Shown in pieces: positions 20,599 through 29,278 of a stretch of 64,000 nucleotides of DNA. Under the pieces are notes generated by a model. It did not search any database. It saw only the letters and a list, made by a program, of their open reading frames with translations, and was not told the DNA's origin. Position 1 is the first letter of the stretch. The number at the start of each line of letters is the position of its first letter. The stretch covers positions 2,914,001-2,978,000 of the forward strand of contig NZ_JAODVR010000001.1 in the NCBI RefSeq assembly GCF_025399835.1, written 5' to 3'. Position numbers and translations under genes: made by a program. The stretch is from Haloarchaeobius sp. HME9146 (GTDB taxonomy: Archaea > Halobacteriota > Halobacteria > Halobacteriales > Natrialbaceae).

Positions 20599-22380
20599 AT
20601 GTCAGGTGAGAACTTCGAGATTTCACGGCGAAAGGCGCTAGCGGCTATCGGGACGACAGGTATCGCGGCCGCGGGGGCGGGACTCGGCACGTCCGCGTAC
20701 TTCAGCGACACGGAGGAGTTCACGGGCAACCGGCTGACTGCTGGGGAGCTGGACCTGCAGGTCGACTGGGAGGAGCACTACGTCGACATGCGGGGGTCGG
20801 AGGCCGAGATCAGCGGCGTTCGAGAACTCGGCAAGAACGACTCCGTCCAGGACGGCGAGTACGGCTTCCCGGACCCCCAGAACCCGCTGCTCGCGATTTC
20901 GGAGTCGAAGAAGACCGAGTTCCAGAACGCGACCTCCATCGAGTGTTTCCCGGACAGCGTCAACAACAACGGGATACAGCAGAATTTCAGCGACGAGAAC
21001 GTGTGTGGGGCGAACAGCGTCCTCGGTTCGGTCGACGCGAAGGAATCGGTGCTCGACCCGCAAAACGACTTCGGGCCCAACGACGAGATGCACCGGACGA
21101 TGAACGAGGATACCGTCGTTACCGACGATTCCGGGAACGTCACGGACACGCGGGCGCTCATCAACCTGTCCGACGTGAAGCCGGGTGACTGTGGCGAGCT
21201 AACGCTGAGCTTCCACCTCTGTGACAACCCCGGGTACGTCTGGCTTCAGGGTGGTGTGGCAACGGACAAAAACGGCGACCCGCTCATCGGCGAGGGGGCG
21301 ATCACCGAGCCCGAGTACAACGACCCGGACGAGGACCAGAAGGAGGGCGGCGCGCTGAAGTCGTCGGATTCTGACGGGAAGAAGACCGTCGAACTCCTCG
21401 ACGAGATCCAGACCCTCATGTGGTACGACGAGGACGGCGACAACGTCTACGAACCGTCAGGGAAGGGTGGCAAGGTCGACGTGATGGTCGTCCTCGACCG
21501 GTCGGGGTCGATGGACAGCGACACGAACGACGATTCTTCCTCCAAGAAGTGGCAGAACACGCTCTCCGGTGCGAAGAACCTCGTGAACGCCCTCGGGGGC
21601 GGCGCAGAGGCAGGACTGGTTTCGTTCGCCGACTCTGCCAGCGTCGATCAAGGACTCACTTCGACGATGAGCGATGTCACCTCGTCAATCAGTGGCTTGA
21701 GTACCGGAGGGGGAACCAACATGGAGGCGGCCATCGACACGGCGCAGTCCGAACTCGCGAACGGCCGGTCCGATGCGAGCTCCATCATGGTCATCCTCTC
21801 TGACGGTGAGCCGACCGTCGGGGATTCAGACACGACCGATGGGACCGATCCCACGGACAACGCCACGGCCGCTCGCGACGCCGGCACGGAGATCTTCACT
21901 ATCGCGTACGGTGGCAGTGCCGATACCACGCTCATGGAGTCGCTCGCCAGTGATACCAATAACGCGTACACCGCCAGCACGAACGAGGTCGAGAAGGTCT
22001 TCTCGAACATCAGTCAGGCGGTCGCGGGCGAGAAGTGCTTCTACCGCGGCAGTCTCCGGAACGCGCTGAACCTGCTGAACGGCTACACCGCCGACGGCGC
22101 CACCGAGGTCGCGGGCGGGATGGGCATCCCGCTCGACGGTGACCGCCGGGACGGCAGTTTCACCGAGGTCGAGAACATGAACTCCTCGGACACCACGAAG
22201 CCCAACGGCGGCGAGAGTTCGGACCGCCAGCCGTTCGTCGACGCCACGACGAACGCCATCGGCTTCGCGTGGTGGCTCCCGGTCGACCACGCCAACGAGA
22301 TCCAGGGCGACTGGGTGGAGTTCGACATCGGCTTCTACACCGAACAGGCCCGCCACAACGACGGCTCCGGGCAGGCCTGA
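20599..22380 (+). CDS. SipW-dependent secreted protein with von Willebrand A domain
   Basis: A 593-residue exported protein. N-terminus: ISRRKALAAIG, a hydrophobic core and GTSAYFSDTE, the SipW-type signal of TasA/camelysin-like proteins. A TasA-like domain follows (SDVKPGDCGELTLSFHLCDN). At about 296-480 a von Willebrand A domain is inserted, with the MIDAS motif DRSGSMDS (Asp300), TGGGTNMEAA and ILSDGEPT. The TasA-like part then resumes and ends in the block IGFAWWLPVDHANEIQ, shared with the next two genes. Likely a surface fibre or adhesive subunit that binds partners through a metal ion; this role is inferred. Confidence 0.88.
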   Translation: MSGENFEISRRKALAAIGTTGIAAAGAGLGTSAYFSDTEEFTGNRLTAGELDLQVDWEEHYVDMRGSEAEISGVRELGKNDSVQDGEYGFPDPQNPLLAISESKKTEFQNATSIECFPDSVNNNGIQQNFSDENVCGANSVLGSVDAKESVLDPQNDFGPNDEMHRTMNEDTVVTDDSGNVTDTRALINLSDVKPGDCGELTLSFHLCDNPGYVWLQGGVATDKNGDPLIGEGAITEPEYNDPDEDQKEGGALKSSDSDGKKTVELLDEIQTLMWYDEDGDNVYEPSGKGGKVDVMVVLDRSGSMDSDTNDDSSSKKWQNTLSGAKNLVNALGGGAEAGLVSFADSASVDQGLTSTMSDVTSSISGLSTGGGTNMEAAIDTAQSELANGRSDASSIMVILSDGEPTVGDSDTTDGTDPTDNATAARDAGTEIFTIAYGGSADTTLMESLASDTNNAYTASTNEVEKVFSNISQAVAGEKCFYRGSLRNALNLLNGYTADGATEVAGGMGIPLDGDRRDGSFTEVENMNSSDTTKPNGGESSDRQPFVDATTNAIGFAWWLPVDHANEIQGDWVEFDIGFYTEQARHNDGSGQA

Positions 22381-22484: not shown

Positions 22485-24161
22485 ATGTCAGACGACGCGT
22501 TCGAACTCTCACGACGGACGGTGCTCGCAGCGCTCGGGACGACAGGGGTGGCCTCGGTCGGAGCTGGATTCGGAACCAGTGCGTACTTCAGCGACAGGGA
22601 GACGTTCGACGGCAACCGGCTGGTGGCCGGCGAACTCGACCTGCTCGTCGACTGGACGGAGCACTACATCGACGGCCGGGGCGACGAGACGGGGGTCGAG
22701 GCCACGCGAGACGACCCCGATGACGACAGCTACACGCCCGTTCCGACCGCCGACTATCCACAGCTCTGGGTGGCCGACAAGGACGCGTTCATGACGGAGA
22801 CGGCGGTCGAGTCGTTTCCCGACACCGACCAGAAGGGGACCGCCGACGACGGGGTGCAGGACGAGATACCGTCCAGCAGCGAGTGCCGCTACATGAAACA
22901 GTTCCTCAGGCAGAACGGGGAGTGGGTCTCCCCGCTGGCGTCTCCGGGTCGGACCACCGGCGACGTCCACGGGCAGACGACGGACGTCACGGTCGGGGAC
23001 GCGGAGGCCTCTGACCCACTCATCGACCTGACCGACGTCAAGCCAGGGGACTTCGGCGAGGTCACGTTCAGTCTCCACCTCTGTGACAATCCTGGCTACG
23101 TCTGGATGAACGGCTCGCTCGACGACGAGCTCACCAGCGAGAACGGGGTCAACGAGGCCGAAGCCGACGACCCCGACGAGGACCAGTACGCCGACGGGTC
23201 CCTGAAGGATTCGGCCGATTCGACGAAGACGGTCGAACTCCTGGAGGCGCTCCGGGCGGTCATGTGGTACGACTTCGGGACCGACGAGGACGGCGACGGG
23301 TACCCCTGGGAGGGGCCGTACAGCGGCGACGACGCCGAAGGAGACAACGTCCAGCAGTCGGGAGAACCGAACCTCATCGCACAGGGGTCGCTGAAGGCCG
23401 TCCTGCGCGCGTTCGAGTCGGGGACCCACGGCATCGCACTCGACGCGAACCCGATGGCGAGCAGTTCGAGCACGCAGGTCCAGCCGGCCGACGGGGGCAA
23501 CGGCGACCCCGGGAACACGGATTTCACCGCCACGCGCTACGAGAAGCCCCAGGAGGGCATCGTCGAGTGCGCCGACATCCACGGCGAGTGGCTGACCGTG
23601 ATGAAGGTCGAGGAGGAGAACCTCCCGAACGGCGGCGATTCGGAGACGTTCAACACGTCCGCGGGGAGGATACGCATCAAGGGCATCGGGTCGGACGGTA
23701 CCCAGCCGATGCAGCTCGCCTTCGATTCGTCGTTCCCGGTCACCGGCGTGCTCGTCAAGGGCGGCCAGGATTCGCTGAGCTGGACCCCGGATGGACAGAC
23801 GTTCTCGTCCGGAACCAGCGGCTACCACTACGACTTCGCGGACGAGACGACCACCGACGCGTGGGACTCGACCGACGTCGCCCTGCACGCGCCGACCGGC
23901 AAGAACGGGAACCGCAGGGCCATCTCGAACGTCCAGTTCTGTATCCTGCCGGACGACAGCGGCTCCGGGAACGGCGACCCGGAGCGTGACTGCTTCGTGG
24001 CTTCGACGACCGCGTCCATCGGGTTCGCGTGGTGGCTCCCCGTCGACCACGCCAACGAGATCCAGTCCGACACCGTCGGGTTCGACCTCGGGTTCTACAC
24101 CGAGCAGTGCCGCCACAACGACGGGGCCGGGCAGCAACCGGAGGGTGGGAGCAGTCCCTGA
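22485..24161 (+). CDS. SipW-dependent TasA-like secreted protein, second
   Basis: A 558-residue paralogue of the protein at 20599. Signal: ELSRRTVLAALG, hydrophobic core, GTSAYFSDRETF. TasA-like motif LTDVKPGDFGEVTFSLHLCD follows. In place of the von Willebrand A domain there is a different insert at about 300-490 with ECADIHGEWLTVMKVEEENL and a Gly/Ser-rich segment, resembling a small beta domain; I do not recognise it. It ends in the conserved IGFAWWLPVDHANEIQ and FYTEQCRHNDG. Export by SipW-type peptidase and a role in a surface structure are expected from the family. Confidence 0.87.
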   Translation: MSDDAFELSRRTVLAALGTTGVASVGAGFGTSAYFSDRETFDGNRLVAGELDLLVDWTEHYIDGRGDETGVEATRDDPDDDSYTPVPTADYPQLWVADKDAFMTETAVESFPDTDQKGTADDGVQDEIPSSSECRYMKQFLRQNGEWVSPLASPGRTTGDVHGQTTDVTVGDAEASDPLIDLTDVKPGDFGEVTFSLHLCDNPGYVWMNGSLDDELTSENGVNEAEADDPDEDQYADGSLKDSADSTKTVELLEALRAVMWYDFGTDEDGDGYPWEGPYSGDDAEGDNVQQSGEPNLIAQGSLKAVLRAFESGTHGIALDANPMASSSSTQVQPADGGNGDPGNTDFTATRYEKPQEGIVECADIHGEWLTVMKVEEENLPNGGDSETFNTSAGRIRIKGIGSDGTQPMQLAFDSSFPVTGVLVKGGQDSLSWTPDGQTFSSGTSGYHYDFADETTTDAWDSTDVALHAPTGKNGNRRAISNVQFCILPDDSGSGNGDPERDCFVASTTASIGFAWWLPVDHANEIQSDTVGFDLGFYTEQCRHNDGAGQQPEGGSSP

Positions 24162-24287: not shown

Positions 24288-26042
24288 ATGTCAGAAGAAG
24301 CTGGATTCAGAGTCACGCGACGGCGTATGCTGGGCGCACTCGGGACCGCAGGGGTCGCCTCTGCGACCGCCGGTCTCGGGACGAGTGCGTTCTTCAGCGA
24401 CCAGGAGACCTTCGAGGCGAACCGGCTCGTCGCCGGCGAGTTGGACCTCATGGTCGACTGGCAAGAACACTACAGCGACTGGAGCGAGGCCGAAGCGCGC
24501 GCCGCGCCCAGTGCGCGGATGGTCGACGGCCCAGGGGAGCTCGAAGAGGGCGAGTACGCCCTCCCGACCTATCTCGACCCGATGCTCGCCATTGACGAGA
24601 CCGACGTCGAGGCGTTCATGGACGCGACGGCCACAGAGGCCCAGCCGGACGAGGACGGTGACGGCGAACAGGACCTCGTTCTGACCCGGAACCAGCTCCG
24701 GTGGCAACACAGCACGTGGAGCGACGAGCGGATAGAGCGGGAGTTTCGCGCCCAGTTCGCGAACGTCCCCGACGACCTGACGCGGCCGCTCATCGACCTC
24801 GGCGACGTGAAACCCGGTGACTTCGGTGAGGTGACGCTGAGCGTCCACCTGTTCGACAACCCGGGCTACCTCTGGCTGACGGGCACACTCGTCGCGGGGT
24901 TCGAGAACGGGCACAGCGAGCCGGAGTCGGACGACAAGGACGAGCGGGGCGACGACCCCGGCGAGGCCGAAGTCGTCGAGCTGCTCGACGAGGTCCAGGC
25001 GGCCGTCTGGCAGGACGACGGCGACAACATCTACGAGGACGGCGAGACGGTCACCTCGCCACACGACGTGGACTCCCCGAGTACCATCGACCTGACCGCC
25101 GACCAGGCGCTCCTCGCCAAGGGGAGCCTCCGCGAGGTACTCTCGGTGCTCTCGAGCGGGAACGGGATTCCGGTCGACGCCGACCCACGGACGAACGACC
25201 GGACCTGCTTCGCCAACTCGACGACCCGGTACTTCGGGTTCGCGTGGTGGCTCCCCGTCGACCACGCCAACGAGATACAGACCGACTCGGTGACGTTCGA
25301 CCTCGGGTTCTACACCGAGCAGTGCCGCCACAACGACGGCCGCGGGCTGCCGCCCCGCGAGCACGTCACACTCCGGGGCGACTACGCGCAGGCCGCTGGC
25401 TTCGAACCGGTGACGGACCGGGCGGCGGCCGGCGACGGCTCCTGGGGCTCGCTCGACGACGCGGACAGGGCCTTCCTCTACCTCGGCCCGGACTTCGCGT
25501 CGTTCAACACCCTGCCGTCGTTCACCGTCGACGATATCGAGGAGATTTCCTATCGCACCTGGTCGGACACGGTCACGAATCCCTCGAACCCGAACTTCTA
25601 CGCCAGCATCTACACGCGGGCGGCCAGCGACCCGAACCCGGACGCCTGGTACGGCAAGCGCCTGACGCTCGACCCGGCCTACGCGACCGAGACGGCGAAC
25701 CCGGACGTGGACGCACCCGCGGGTCAGTGGAATCGCTGGACGACGCGAGCAACGTCGCAGAACACGCTCGGCGTGTACGACGCGAACCGGTACGGGGTGG
25801 GATTCGGCTACACCGACGGCACGATACCGACGCTGTCGGACCTCCAGTCGGCGGCCGCGTTCGACTGGGAGGACTGGCGGAGTGCGGCTGCTTCGACGGC
25901 CATCGACTACGGCGCACAGGAGGTCAAGACGATATCGGTCGCCGTCGGGAACCCCTGGTGGCCGGATTTCACCGGCCACCTGGACGCGATCACGGTACAG
26001 CTGACCAGCGGCGAGGAGCTGCAGGTCGACCTCGAGCCCTGA
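24288..26042 (+). CDS. SipW-dependent TasA-like secreted protein, third
   Basis: A 584-residue paralogue with signal VTRRRMLGALG...GTSAFFSDQETF, the TasA-like motif GDVKPGDFGEVTLSVHLFD and the shared YFGFAWWLPVDHANEIQ block at about 318-334. Unlike its neighbours that block is not at the end: about 230 more residues follow, with Trp- and Asn-rich segments (GNPWWPDFTGHLDAITVQL) that look like a carbohydrate- or cell-wall-binding beta domain, although I cannot name the family. The three paralogues thus keep one core and vary the added domain. Confidence 0.85.
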   Translation: MSEEAGFRVTRRRMLGALGTAGVASATAGLGTSAFFSDQETFEANRLVAGELDLMVDWQEHYSDWSEAEARAAPSARMVDGPGELEEGEYALPTYLDPMLAIDETDVEAFMDATATEAQPDEDGDGEQDLVLTRNQLRWQHSTWSDERIEREFRAQFANVPDDLTRPLIDLGDVKPGDFGEVTLSVHLFDNPGYLWLTGTLVAGFENGHSEPESDDKDERGDDPGEAEVVELLDEVQAAVWQDDGDNIYEDGETVTSPHDVDSPSTIDLTADQALLAKGSLREVLSVLSSGNGIPVDADPRTNDRTCFANSTTRYFGFAWWLPVDHANEIQTDSVTFDLGFYTEQCRHNDGRGLPPREHVTLRGDYAQAAGFEPVTDRAAAGDGSWGSLDDADRAFLYLGPDFASFNTLPSFTVDDIEEISYRTWSDTVTNPSNPNFYASIYTRAASDPNPDAWYGKRLTLDPAYATETANPDVDAPAGQWNRWTTRATSQNTLGVYDANRYGVGFGYTDGTIPTLSDLQSAAAFDWEDWRSAAASTAIDYGAQEVKTISVAVGNPWWPDFTGHLDAITVQLTSGEELQVDLEP

Positions 26043-26124: not shown

Positions 26125-26898
26125 ATGCAACAGCCATCGAGCCGCCGTCGCGTCATCGCCACGCTCAGCGGTGTCGCCCTCACCGGGCTGGGGGTCGGGG
26201 CCGTACACGAAGCGCTCGACCTCGACCAGGTGGCGTTCAGCTCGCGCGCGGCGCTCACACCCGACGGTGAATCGGTCGACCCAGCACCGGGAGCCACGGA
26301 CGGTGCCCGGCACGCCCTCCTGGTCGCGTGGCGGGAGGAGTACAACGGCGAGCTGGTCGAGGACGCCACCCTCCAGACCGCAGACGAGGTGGCTAGCGGG
26401 CCGTTACTCGAGATAACCGACGCCAAGCCGGGAGACGAGGGACTGCTCGTCCTGCACGTCGAGGTCTTCGGCGACCGCCCGGGTCGCGTCCGGCTCTCGC
26501 TCCCACTGACGAAAGCGGCGGAGAACGGGCAGAACGAACCGGAGGAACACGCGCCTGACCCGTTGCCCGACAAGGGCGAGTTGCAGCGACACGTCGACGT
26601 CGAACTGTGGTACGACGACGGTGTCCTCGTCGAAGGGGTTGGTGGCTGCAACGGCAACCGCGACATGGGGGAGACCCACATCGCCGAGGGGACGCTGGCG
26701 GAGGTCAGCGAGCAACTCGCGGCCGGTCGCCCGCTCGTCCATCCGGGGAAGAGCGACGGGTGTCTCTCGCCGGGTCAGTCGTTCTGTGTCTCGCTCTCGT
26801 GGTCGATCGACAGGACCGTTCGAAACAGCATCCAGTCCGACAGTGTGGCGTTCTCGCTCGGCCTCGGTCTGGAGGACTGTGCCGGAGGTGACGGATGA
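26125..26898 (+). CDS. Secreted TasA-related small protein
   Basis: A 257-residue protein with SSRRRVIATLSGVALTGLG, an Arg-rich then hydrophobic export signal; the SipW-type YFSD end is missing and replaced by DLDQVAFSS. The central motif ITDAKPGDEGLLVLHVEVF matches the DVKPGD-x-GE core of the upstream proteins, and SIQSDSVAFSLGLGLEDC matches their C-terminal strand. It appears to be a smaller, diverged member of the same fold, perhaps a minor or anchoring subunit. Its upstream hairpin ties it to the same unit. Confidence 0.75.
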   Translation: MQQPSSRRRVIATLSGVALTGLGVGAVHEALDLDQVAFSSRAALTPDGESVDPAPGATDGARHALLVAWREEYNGELVEDATLQTADEVASGPLLEITDAKPGDEGLLVLHVEVFGDRPGRVRLSLPLTKAAENGQNEPEEHAPDPLPDKGELQRHVDVELWYDDGVLVEGVGGCNGNRDMGETHIAEGTLAEVSEQLAAGRPLVHPGKSDGCLSPGQSFCVSLSWSIDRTVRNSIQSDSVAFSLGLGLEDCAGGDG

Positions 26899-27096: not shown

Positions 27097-27690
27097 ATGA
27101 CACCGGAGGAGTGCTCGCGTCGTCGGGTCCTGCAGCTGGCGGGAGTGCTCGGTGCGGCCGGACTCGCCGGTGGAGCCGCGACCCACGCGCTCCTCTCGTC
27201 TCGAGAATCGTTTCCGGGGAACACGCTCCAGGCCAGCTCGTTCGACCTCCGGGTCGCATGCAAGCGGGACGACGGGTTCACCGTCCCGGCCCAGGACAGC
27301 GACGCCTTCCCGACGAGGTGGGCCAACTCGGCGGACATGCACGTCCCGCTGGCGCTGACACCCGGTGAGACCCGAACGATGACGGTCGCGCTGCGGGCCA
27401 CGGAGCCGGTCGAGACCGCGCTCCGAATCACGGGGGGTTCGGACGATTCGGCCGGAGAACTGCGGCTCTGGCGGGACGAGGACGGCGACACCCGATGGGA
27501 GGACACCGACGCCGCCATCCAGACGAATCCGTCTCCGGTGGTCCTCGACGAACTCCCGGTCGACCTCGGGCTGGGGGTGTGTGGTGGGACGCCGCGGCGA
27601 ATCGGGCTGGAGTGGGCCGTACCGCCGGACGCACGGGCGACCGAGTACTCGCTACGACTCGAATTCATCACAAGACAATGTCAAGATTGA
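27097..27690 (+). CDS. Small secreted protein of the SipW-type cluster
   Basis: A 197-residue protein with a twin-Arg-like signal (SRRRVLQLAGVLGAAGLAGG) and ALLSSRESFPGNTLQ, which lines up with the YFSDTESF-x-GN region of SipW substrates. The rest is a small beta-rich domain (LTPGETRTMTVALRATE) like the TasA core, with two or three cysteines (ACK, GVCGG, RQCQD) that could form a disulfide. It ends 20 bases before the signal peptidase gene and is probably co-transcribed with it. Exact role unknown. Confidence 0.75.
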   Translation: MTPEECSRRRVLQLAGVLGAAGLAGGAATHALLSSRESFPGNTLQASSFDLRVACKRDDGFTVPAQDSDAFPTRWANSADMHVPLALTPGETRTMTVALRATEPVETALRITGGSDDSAGELRLWRDEDGDTRWEDTDAAIQTNPSPVVLDELPVDLGLGVCGGTPRRIGLEWAVPPDARATEYSLRLEFITRQCQD

Positions 27691-27709: not shown

Positions 27710-29278
27710 GTGGGGGACGTGAACTGGTCACTGCTGCGGCGCGTGGCGAAGATACTCGCGTTCGTGCTCGTCCTCGCGTTGCTCGTCCCGTTCGTCGTCT
27801 ACAGCGTGCCACAGACCGTCGGGGCGGACCACGGCTTCGTGGTCCTCTCCGGCAGCATGGAGCCGACGATGAGCCCGGGCGACGTGGTCATCGTGAACGA
27901 GGTCAACCCGGACCGGCTGGAGAAGGGGGACATCATCACGTTCGGGAAGAACGGGACGCCGACCACCCACCGCATCATCGAGGTGCAAGAATCGGGCGAC
28001 GGGCTGGAATTCCGGACGAAGGGTGACTCCAACGAAGACCCTGACGCGGGGACGGTCGCAGCCGGCGATGTCGTCGGCAGGGTCCAGCACGTCGTGCCCT
28101 ACATGGGACACGTCGTGAACTTCGCGAACACCAGGACCGGCTTCGGTGTGCTGGTCATGGGCCCCATCGCGTTGCTCCTCGTGACCGAGGTGTGGTCGTT
28201 CGCAGCGTCGGCCAGGACGGGCGCTGACGGACCAGCACAGACCACGGACGTGGACTCGACGCGGCGTGACGATGGTGCGACACCGGCTGGTGAACCCGGC
28301 CCCACAGCTGGCGAATCGGCTGCCGACGGTGCCACCACGGCCAGCGAGGCGGTGGAAGAGAGTTCGAGCACTATCGTCGTGACGCGGAACGACATCAGGT
28401 TGAGCCTGGTGCTCTTTCTCGTCTACACTCCCTACAGCGCCTTGATCGCCTACCGGAGCCTCGAACCACTGTCGGTAACCGTCGCCGTCGCCTCGGTCGC
28501 GGGTCTCCTGTTCACCGGGACCATCTACGCGTTAGGCGGGGCAGACGATGGAGGGACGACGCGAGTTTCCCCGGAGCTGACTCCCGAGCAGTCGGCGGCT
28601 GCTGCGGAGCCGGTTGTCGAGGAACCGACCGACACTGCAGTCGCCTCCGATGCTTCGACCGACGCTGGCGGCTCCACCGGCCCGTCACCGATCGTCGAGG
28701 TGACGGGCGACGACGCGACCTTCGACTTCGAGGACCCCCTCGAACCGGCAGCGTCGGCCCATGACACTCCGGAACCGGAGGAGTGGACGATATGGCAGCG
28801 TCTCAGGCCCTCATCGACAGCACGGGAATCCACCTCGACTGCGCAGGAATCCATCTCGACCGAGCAAGCAGCCACTTCGACCGGGCAGGACCCTACCCCG
28901 CCTGAGCAGTGGACCGTGACGGAGCGTCTGGACCGCCGGACGGTGCTGGCGCTCGCGCTCGTCACCGTCTTCGGGCTCAGCCTGTTCGGCGGATACCAGA
29001 CGTACGCCGTCCTCTCCGATACGGAACGCGTCTCGGTCGACGTCTCCGTCGAGGAGTCGGAGAACGTCTCGGTGAGTGCTGCGGAGACGAACACGAGTAC
29101 TGCAACCGCGACGAGTACTGCAACCGCGACGAGTACTACAACCACGACGAGTACTGCAACCGCGACGAGTACCACAACCACGACAACGACGGCCACCTCG
29201 ACAGCGACAGCCACGACCAGTGGCGAGACGACCAACACGACGACGAGCGCGGAGAACAACAGGCGAGGCTACCGGTGA
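27710..29278 (+). CDS. Signal peptidase I (SipW/ER type) with extended C-terminus
   Basis: A 522-residue protein. Residues 1-160 are a complete archaeal-type signal peptidase: helix 1, VLSGSMEPTM with Ser49, and TTHRII with His87 as the Ser-His pair, then GDSNEDPD. The usual protein would end after the next helix. Here about 360 residues are added: an acidic linker, two transmembrane helices (about 225-275), another linker, and a last helix followed by TYAVLSDTERVSVDV, which resembles the cleavage region of its own substrates, then a Thr/Ser-rich tail. Start is GTG at 27710 (or 27719). It should process the SipW-type proteins upstream. Confidence 0.88.
   Translation: MGDVNWSLLRRVAKILAFVLVLALLVPFVVYSVPQTVGADHGFVVLSGSMEPTMSPGDVVIVNEVNPDRLEKGDIITFGKNGTPTTHRIIEVQESGDGLEFRTKGDSNEDPDAGTVAAGDVVGRVQHVVPYMGHVVNFANTRTGFGVLVMGPIALLLVTEVWSFAASARTGADGPAQTTDVDSTRRDDGATPAGEPGPTAGESAADGATTASEAVEESSSTIVVTRNDIRLSLVLFLVYTPYSALIAYRSLEPLSVTVAVASVAGLLFTGTIYALGGADDGGTTRVSPELTPEQSAAAAEPVVEEPTDTAVASDASTDAGGSTGPSPIVEVTGDDATFDFEDPLEPAASAHDTPEPEEWTIWQRLRPSSTARESTSTAQESISTEQAATSTGQDPTPPEQWTVTERLDRRTVLALALVTVFGLSLFGGYQTYAVLSDTERVSVDVSVEESENVSVSAAETNTSTATATSTATATSTTTTTSTATATSTTTTTTTATSTATATTSGETTNTTTSAENNRRGYR
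29093..29182 (+). repeat. Five 18-bp tandem repeats in the signal peptidase tail
   Basis: Five head-to-tail units of acgagtactgcaaccgcg with a few A/G changes, coding for TSTATA/TSTTTT. They give a Thr/Ser-rich tail suited to O-glycosylation outside the cell, and a tract prone to length change. Confidence 0.85.

Follow-up and report, generated by a model that had tools for sequence, protein, structure and literature searches.

The DNA analysed here, referred to as the window, is a stretch of 64,000 nucleotides of a Haloarchaeobius genome. An open frame of 522 codons is located on its + strand, starting with GTG at 27710 and ending with TGA at 29278, and the encoded protein of 522 aa is composed, in this order, of an S26 peptidase, two helices, a cytoplasmic linker, a fifth helix, the segment TYA|VLSDTE (the bar indicates the predicted cut) and a Thr/Ser tail. 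The features of this gene are listed below, in which "companion" stands for the separate gene found behind related peptidase genes.

27710..28204, + strand: signal peptidase I, S26, archaeal/ER type, with helix 1, the catalytic domain and helix 2 (residues 1-165; by TIGR02228, by SEC11C/SEC11A in sequence and fold, and by pLDDT)
27854..28045, + strand: catalytic residues Ser49 (27854), His87 (27968), Asp106 (28025) and Asp112 (28043), in invariant columns
28388..28546, + strand: helices 3 and 4 (residues 227-279; modelled helices 226-250 and 253-279, pLDDT blocks 79-94)
28547..28933, + strand: linker, cytoplasmic, acidic and S/T-rich (residues 280-408; pLDDT mostly <50; Asp/Glu 27/129)
28814..28897, + strand: four in-frame 21-nt repeats inside the linker, STAREST/STAQESI/STEQAAT/STGQDPT (TRF array)
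28916..28918, + strand: in-frame GTG at residue 403, relic of the start codon of the companion (now GTGA, its TGA out of the peptidase frame; aligned with ATGA of locus L003; ribosome-binding site lost)
28934..28999, + strand: helix 5, signal-peptide-like, predicted N-in/C-out (residues 409-430; companion HMM; modelled helix 409-425, pLDDT ~66)
29000..29026, + strand: SipW-type site TYA|VLSDTE, covering P3-P6', with the cut predicted to fall between 29008 and 29009 (companion-site pattern)
29009..29059, + strand: strand-like mature N-terminus VLSDTERVSVDVSVEES, candidate donor strand (alternating hydrophobics in 48 companions)
29060..29275, + strand: Thr/Ser-rich extracellular tail, predicted disordered (residues 451-522; S+T content; pLDDT <50; 18-nt tandem repeats by TRF)

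The N-terminal domain was recognized by the initial annotation, made from the sequence alone, as a complete signal peptidase with the pair Ser49-His87, and this assignment was borne out. Residues 14-160 matched TIGR02228 (sigpep_I_arch) with E 3.3e-33 and 114.8 bits, passing the family test (cut-off 51.85), and the four catalytic residues were unchanged across an alignment of 43 relatives. Upon alignment with SEC11C/SEC11A, Ser49, His87, and Asp106 fell on equivalent positions, and the top match in the fold test by Foldseek was 7p2q_A (human SPC-C) with E 4.6e-7. In the AlphaFold2 model of the 522-aa protein (43 sequences, mean pLDDT 61.6), the S26 core formed blocks of pLDDT 90-97 over residues 41-130. 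Against the Bacillus SipW equivalog NF046067, the fused protein scored 105.8 bits for a cut-off of 190. The 522-aa protein is a member of TIGR02228 and stands outside the Bacillus SipW equivalog. The eukaryotic SEC11 shares the same catalytic domain by sequence and fold, but is not known to carry a C-terminal exported segment; the partners of SEC11 in the signal peptidase complex are separate subunits.

The sequence C-terminal to residue 165 is 357 aa in length and includes three more helices, in agreement with the extension of about 360 residues with extra helices that had been pointed out initially; its two middle helices, however, are not peculiar to this protein. At least two predicted helices past the S26 domain were detected in 46 of 71 haloarchaeal peptidase ORFs. 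Helices 3 and 4 are thus usual among haloarchaeal peptidases, and the unusual part is the last helix and the tail only. Within the linker repeats, the minimum numbers of changes at codon positions 1/2/3 were 2/5/7. Codon scoring was rejected as an arbiter of the linker frame, because over ~28720-28930 the annotated frame and one other frame score alike, both near zero.

The origin of the C-terminal part became apparent from comparison with the nearest relative, G001. At its syntenic locus L003, the peptidase gene ends at 2568 and the next ORF starts with ATG at 2565, giving a 4-nt ATGA overlap. This separate companion consists of MTDRTPPRQVRIALLLVALLGLALVGGYQTYGALSDSEPVSV followed by a Thr-rich tail, and its counterpart in the window is the sequence from residue 403, VTERLDRRTVLALALVTVFGLSLFGGYQTYAVLSDTERVSV; 31 of 58 residues are identical between the two, and the differences by codon position are 19/18/30. 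The genes flanking the two loci are colinear, many being 80-92% identical. From the syntenic split pair, the companion counterpart and the colinear flanks, it follows that the window gene is two genes in one frame, and a fusion of peptidase and companion is, as judged by this comparison, nearly certain. In all five other genomes of the genus, the peptidase genes are followed by a separate downstream ORF, and on the evidence of these sequences the fused state is derived within the genus.

How the frames were joined is suggested by the junction. A match of at least 4 nt to GGAGGTGA, which we take to be the haloarchaeal ribosome-binding consensus, was identified ahead of 46 of 51 companion starts, and one of at least 5 nt ahead of 38 of 51, whereas GTG at 28916 is preceded by a 3-nt match only, which is the value met most often in 5000 random 15-mers taken from the window (24% of these reach 4 nt and 6% reach 5 nt). 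In the local pairwise alignment of the two sequences, a gap of 2 nt in the window is located exactly at this GTG. A 2-nt deletion, we suggest, would at once break the ribosome-binding site and merge the frames. A sequencing or assembly error that joined two intact overlapping genes is conceivable inasmuch as the fusion is found in a single genome and the junction of a parallel case in a metagenome-assembled genome (MAG; L068, below) lies within A and G runs. An indel error, however, would not erase the ribosome-binding site, and the frame in which GTGA provides the stop has a clearly non-coding codon score across the whole linker. On these two grounds the fused state is probably not an error, and the explanation by error is regarded as very improbable.

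Relatives of the peptidase were collected by an alignment-based search of genome contigs, which yielded 344 relatives, the best 80 of which were used; the search with a single sequence gave no relative. A total of 91 peptidase ORFs, including those at the genus loci, were recognized. The duplicates L013, L043, L044, L047, and L056, which lie on contigs already represented by genus loci, were dropped before counting, as was L001, which is the window itself, and L083, open at a contig end, was left out, giving 84 non-duplicate ORFs; L014, L058, L077, L086, and L093, in which the script found no peptidase ORF, were not counted. Based on a helix-plus-motif rule, a companion starting within 10 nt of the peptidase stop was identified for 51 of these 84 ORFs (best 80 of 344 relatives and the genus), with peaks of the start offset at -3 (n=17), -7 (n=14), and -10 (n=8). 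The full site T-x-A-x-[LF]-x-D was present in the companions of 47 of the 84 peptidase ORFs versus one of 733 control ORFs, that is, other long ORFs in the same loci, among which the rule alone selected 20. The sole control ORF with the full site, in L058, is itself a peptidase overlooked by the script. In two annotated plasmid records, the same 4-nt overlap exists and the companion is named "hypothetical protein". Among further genomes of the family and order, separate companions that overlap or abut the peptidase gene were observed in L095, L096, L103, and L104, and a weaker one in L097; the fusion was absent in all eight of these further loci, and L098 was set aside as a different peptidase without the SipW-type end.

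The sites could be compared for 48 companions, the set omitting L035, L049, and L073 with no recognized site. Position P3 was T/S/A in 48 of 48 (T in 39), P1 was A/G/S in 48 of 48 (A in 32), P2' was L/F in 47 of 48, and P6' was Glu in 35 of 48; P1 and P3 played no role in companion selection, to which a hydrophobic P2' and an Asp at P4' did contribute in part. After the site, hydrophobic residues occupied P8' in 71%, P10' in 54%, and P12' in 94% of the 48 companions, an alternating contrast that was reached by none of 5000 within-sequence shuffles, the contrasted positions having been picked after viewing the sequences. The 45 complete companions ranged from 93 to 493 aa in length and from 0.13 to 0.63 in S+T content of the tail, the helix and the site being conserved and the tail variable. 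When ten companions were examined, only that of L002 scored above cut-off in Pfam, its hexapeptide/acyltransferase matches and the assorted matches of others being attributed to low-complexity repeats; in NCBIfam, L069 reached the cut-off of TIGR04088, L038 stayed below it, and the rest gave low-complexity or sub-cut-off matches. The ten thus belong to no curated family apart from one weak SipW-signal match above cut-off.

In the window protein, TYAVLSDTERVSV follows helix 5, and the site occupies residues 431-439 (nt 29000-29026). An HMM trained on 40 companions, all from beyond the genus, matched residues 409-450 with E 3.8e-8 in a target set of 412 proteins; since the training ORFs had been selected by the loose helix-plus-motif rule, part of this resemblance is built in. 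Among the ORFs of the window, the fused gene was the best match of this HMM and the upstream SipW-type substrates were the next-best. The closeness of TYAVLSDTE to TSAYFSDTE of the upstream proteins, noticed from the start, was thereby upheld, as was the Thr/Ser-rich nature of the tail (S+T = 0.59 of residues beyond the first 45 of the window companion part). The C-terminal piece gave no match to TIGR04088 (SipW-dependent signal peptide) at E up to 1, and the C-terminal part received no label in the Pfam search. It had been stated at the outset that a tail never cleaved, together with a C-terminal part seen in homologues only as a variable spacer without the SDTE-type motif, would refute the initial interpretation. 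In the homologues the helix and the site are conserved, and the extension as a mere variable spacer was rejected by the companion HMM match and the conserved site. A five-helix, N-in topology, with Arg-Arg ahead of helix 5, is predicted to place the site on the outer face of the membrane.

Fused genes were identified in three of the 86 rows of the peptidase tree (best 80 of 344 relatives and the genus): the window, L068, and L083. L068, from a MAG labelled Thermoplasmata, is a single ORF in which the peptidase is followed by a helix, YFYDIEVSSGN and then a Lamin Tail Domain (E 4.5e-16). In its near-copy L073, from a MAG with the label Aenigmatarchaeota, the two genes are separate and overlap by ATGA; where L073 has ATG, L068 reads ATA. 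Since the peptidases of L068 and L073 are sisters on the tree, one of the MAG labels may be a binning error. L083, from another Aenigmatarchaeota MAG, encodes the peptidase, a helix and TGAFFKDVELSAGN, and is open at the contig end. The fusion was thus seen in only one examined haloarchaeal genome, the other two cases being MAG contigs. On the 86-row tree, constructed by a quick method, the three fused rows need three separate changes, and the window peptidase is sister to that of G001 (SH-aLRT 99). A fusion of the same kind thus arose at least two other times, independently. Beyond what had been noted before, these comparisons show that the gene is a fusion, derived within the genus and paralleled at least twice elsewhere.

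The fusion might be neutral, a small deletion having merged the genes and the product being split at once, so that nothing would depend on the two being joined. The small number of fused rows (3 of 86) and the sufficiency of the 2-nt junction gap are in line with such a read-through fusion, but the three independent fusions together with the lost start signal of the companion suggest that the merged state is, at the least, tolerated over long periods, and the in-frame linker repeats look settled. We judge a neutral merger to be rather unlikely.

Upstream of the fused gene, the following cluster was identified.

20599..22380, + strand: SipW-type substrate with an inserted vWA domain (PF00092 E 2.3e-21; PF12389 and TIGR04088 above cut-off)
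22485..24161, + strand: SipW-type TasA-like substrate, TSAYFSDRE (TIGR04088 22.5 bits, cut-off 19)
24288..26042, + strand: SipW-type TasA-like substrate, TSAFFSDQE (TIGR04088 22.5 bits, cut-off 19)
26125..26898, + strand: member of the TasA-like family in which no clear SDTE site was found (iterated profile search)
27097..27690, + strand: compact TasA/camelysin-like protein, its gene being the one immediately before the peptidase gene (family profile match)

The sites of three upstream proteins, TSAYFSDTE, TSAYFSDRE, and TSAFFSDQE, are located at the equivalent place, and TIGR04088 labels these three SDTE-type proteins and the 27097 protein. A 43-row profile of the upstream family matched TasA (5of1, E 1.2e-10; 8aur, E 1.3e-10) and archaeal bundling protein X, AbpX (9sj2, E 4e-5; 9rhp, E 0.0033), and Camelysin PF12389 was found in 32 of the 43 members. 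By VIA-align, an upstream TasA-like protein was superimposed on 8aur_A with Z 7.1 (126 aligned, rmsd 2.8), a score tied with those of unrelated beta-sandwiches; Foldseek gave no match for it at E <= 0.001, and phmmer with 24288-26039 alone found nothing in PDB. As judged from the profile matches, the upstream proteins appear to belong to the TasA/camelysin family, relatives of TasA and of the archaeal bundling pilus, and are putative filament subunits. The fused tail itself is not a TasA domain. In the TasA-like subunits, F is located at P8', G-N at P10'-P11', and a hydrophobic residue at P13' (139 of 266 with a recognized, distinct site). The companion strand agrees with these subunits up to P8' and then diverges, which makes its use as a donor strand a guess. 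Proteins with vWA like that at 20599-22380 are annotated beside peptidases on two haloarchaeal plasmids.

Among the closest known systems is tapA-sipW-tasA of Bacillus, in which, as in the window, an ER-type peptidase is clustered with TasA-like substrates and P2' is aromatic or Leu. The TasA site has Thr at P3 and Asp at P4', and SipW of Bacillus is reportedly bifunctional. SipW is a stand-alone enzyme, whereas the window protein has a C-terminal addition of ~357 residues, the end of which is an exported segment of the SipW type. SipW of B. subtilis cleaves TasA and TapA (PMC9674648); in TasA, P2 is Trp and P2' is Phe, and the P3-P4' residues block E. coli LepB (PMC10269814); TasA subunits donate an N-terminal strand, beta-0, of which only the beginning, around F29, is conserved, and TapA, which shares the N-terminus and strand with TasA, sits at the filament start, residues 44-57 of secreted TapA being enough for proper biofilm (PMC10151520). 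The same source describes the tapA stop as overlapping the sipW start. TapA is compared here with the companion, being a SipW substrate of low copy, encoded by a gene overlapping sipW, whose N-terminal strand starts TasA filaments (PMC10151520). TapA has an Ig domain, and its gene precedes sipW. The companion, in contrast, offers no more than a strand-like N-terminus ahead of a low-complexity tail, and its gene lies downstream of the peptidase gene, to which it is fused in the window. No Ig domain follows the N-terminal strand of the window tail, which is predicted disordered with pLDDT <50. The likeness between TapA and the companion is one of analogy, with no homology shown.

From the SipW-type site, the strand-like pattern and the Bacillus parallels, the companion is read as an exported protein, composed of a strand and a tail, that undergoes maturation by the neighbouring enzyme. 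The fused gene joins a SipW-like peptidase gene and its neighbour, which in haloarchaea mostly overlaps it and encodes a short SipW-type exported companion, made up of a signal helix, the site T-x-A|x-[LF]-[ST]-D-[ST]-E, a strand-like mature N-terminus and a Ser/Thr/Asn-rich tail. The window protein would enter the membrane with five helices, and this peptidase, in cis or as another copy, would cut it behind Ala433; the products would be an enzyme that retains all five helices and a free tail of 89 aa starting with VLSDTERVSVDVSVEE. We consider this course of events, reconstructed from the sequence, to be reasonably probable. Of the possibilities raised initially, an enzyme plus subunit with a tail that may be released fits best, since the genus and the majority of the sampled haloarchaea encode the C-terminal part as a separate downstream gene. 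Self-processing, also raised, is likely in the sense of cleavage by the same kind of enzyme, be it in cis or in trans.

Alternatively, the tail could stay uncleaved, in which case helix 5 would anchor it permanently and the Thr-rich tail would remain outside the cell as a fixed arm, in the manner of accessory subunits in the eukaryotic signal peptidase complex. In favour of this, the gene overlap and the repeated fusion fit a stoichiometric partner, and the tail is Thr-rich. The small P3 and P1 and the L/F at P2' in 47-48 of the 48 companion sites, however, constitute a cleavage-site pattern that a plain anchor does not need, and an uncleaved tail is considered unlikely. As for the third suggestion, an internal substrate mimic or inhibitor, TYAVLSDTE would occupy the active site in cis and keep the enzyme off until cut. 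The site is retained and, in the predicted topology, the tether puts it on the membrane face of the active site, but helix 5 is modelled with low confidence, and the segment is a separate protein in most relatives, which argues that cis inhibition is not the ancestral role. A mimic, while possible, has nothing specific in its support and is very unlikely.

The reading favoured here, held with moderate confidence, is that of a peptidase to which a SipW-type filament initiator resembling TapA is attached in cis, the 89-aa tail probably being released by a cut behind Ala433. The companion would act as a low-copy starter, its free N-terminal strand complementing the first TasA-like subunit and its disordered tail staying at the base of the filament; by analogy with TapA, this role is proposed only tentatively. 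The fusion would set one starter per enzyme at the place where the subunits mature or, if uncut, tie the filament base to the enzyme; either effect is improbable on present grounds. It is conceivable, though doubtful, that the peptidase is at the same time the starter of the filament whose subunits it matures, with a TapA-like donor strand in cis, so that activity, starter release and nucleation are coupled and uncut copies form the membrane base. If this were true, the overlapping companions of haloarchaea would be widespread, undescribed, minimal donor-strand initiators for archaeal TasA-type filaments.

A natural fusion of a processing protease with a likely exported substrate is uncommon, and its split and fused states can be compared here between close relatives. 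The fusion points to an undescribed companion gene behind most of the sampled haloarchaeal genes for SipW-type peptidases. If the companion starts TasA-type filaments, the question of how haloarchaea nucleate such filaments and keep them at the membrane would have an answer open to testing. Within the open-licence literature, no paper was found on a SipW-type signal peptidase in haloarchaea or on a Haloarchaeobius signal peptidase; for a self-cleaving fusion of signal peptidase and substrate in archaea, the sole match concerns SppA, and the main text of an archaeal fusion survey (PMC11237513) does not contain "signal peptid".

Variation was observed at several of the loci. For 32 of the 86 tree rows the script detected no companion within 10 nt, and L027, L048, and L054 among these have one by eye; six Haloferax rows show none. 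In Halobellus L015, L017, L018, L019, and L021, a Tat/SipW-type substrate (SRR...LTDTE) overlaps the peptidase end and replaces the short companion, the position of the LTDTE site being beyond the inspected residues in L018 and L019. In Haloarcula L067, L070, and L071, the downstream gene is 45-95 nt off, and its helix ends in an LTSD-type motif but lacks a T-x-A site, so that decay of the SipW-type signal may have taken place at these loci. Halobellus rufus carries a 760-aa peptidase ORF (L025:5911-8193) with ~480 residues past the last predicted helix; this ORF was rejected as a fusion, having no family match outside the S26 domain and its own separate companion. In the source genome of the window, a second SipW-type cluster (L002/L100, G000:C1:2117000-2131000) contains genes for two Tat/SipW-type substrates and for a peptidase of 343 aa; the companion there, of 344 aa and rich in N-x-T/S repeats, is encoded separately. 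The companions of L002 (2477-3511) and L008 share ~150 similar residues that separate the site from the repeat tail; Pfam gave no match for this stretch, which could be a folded domain.
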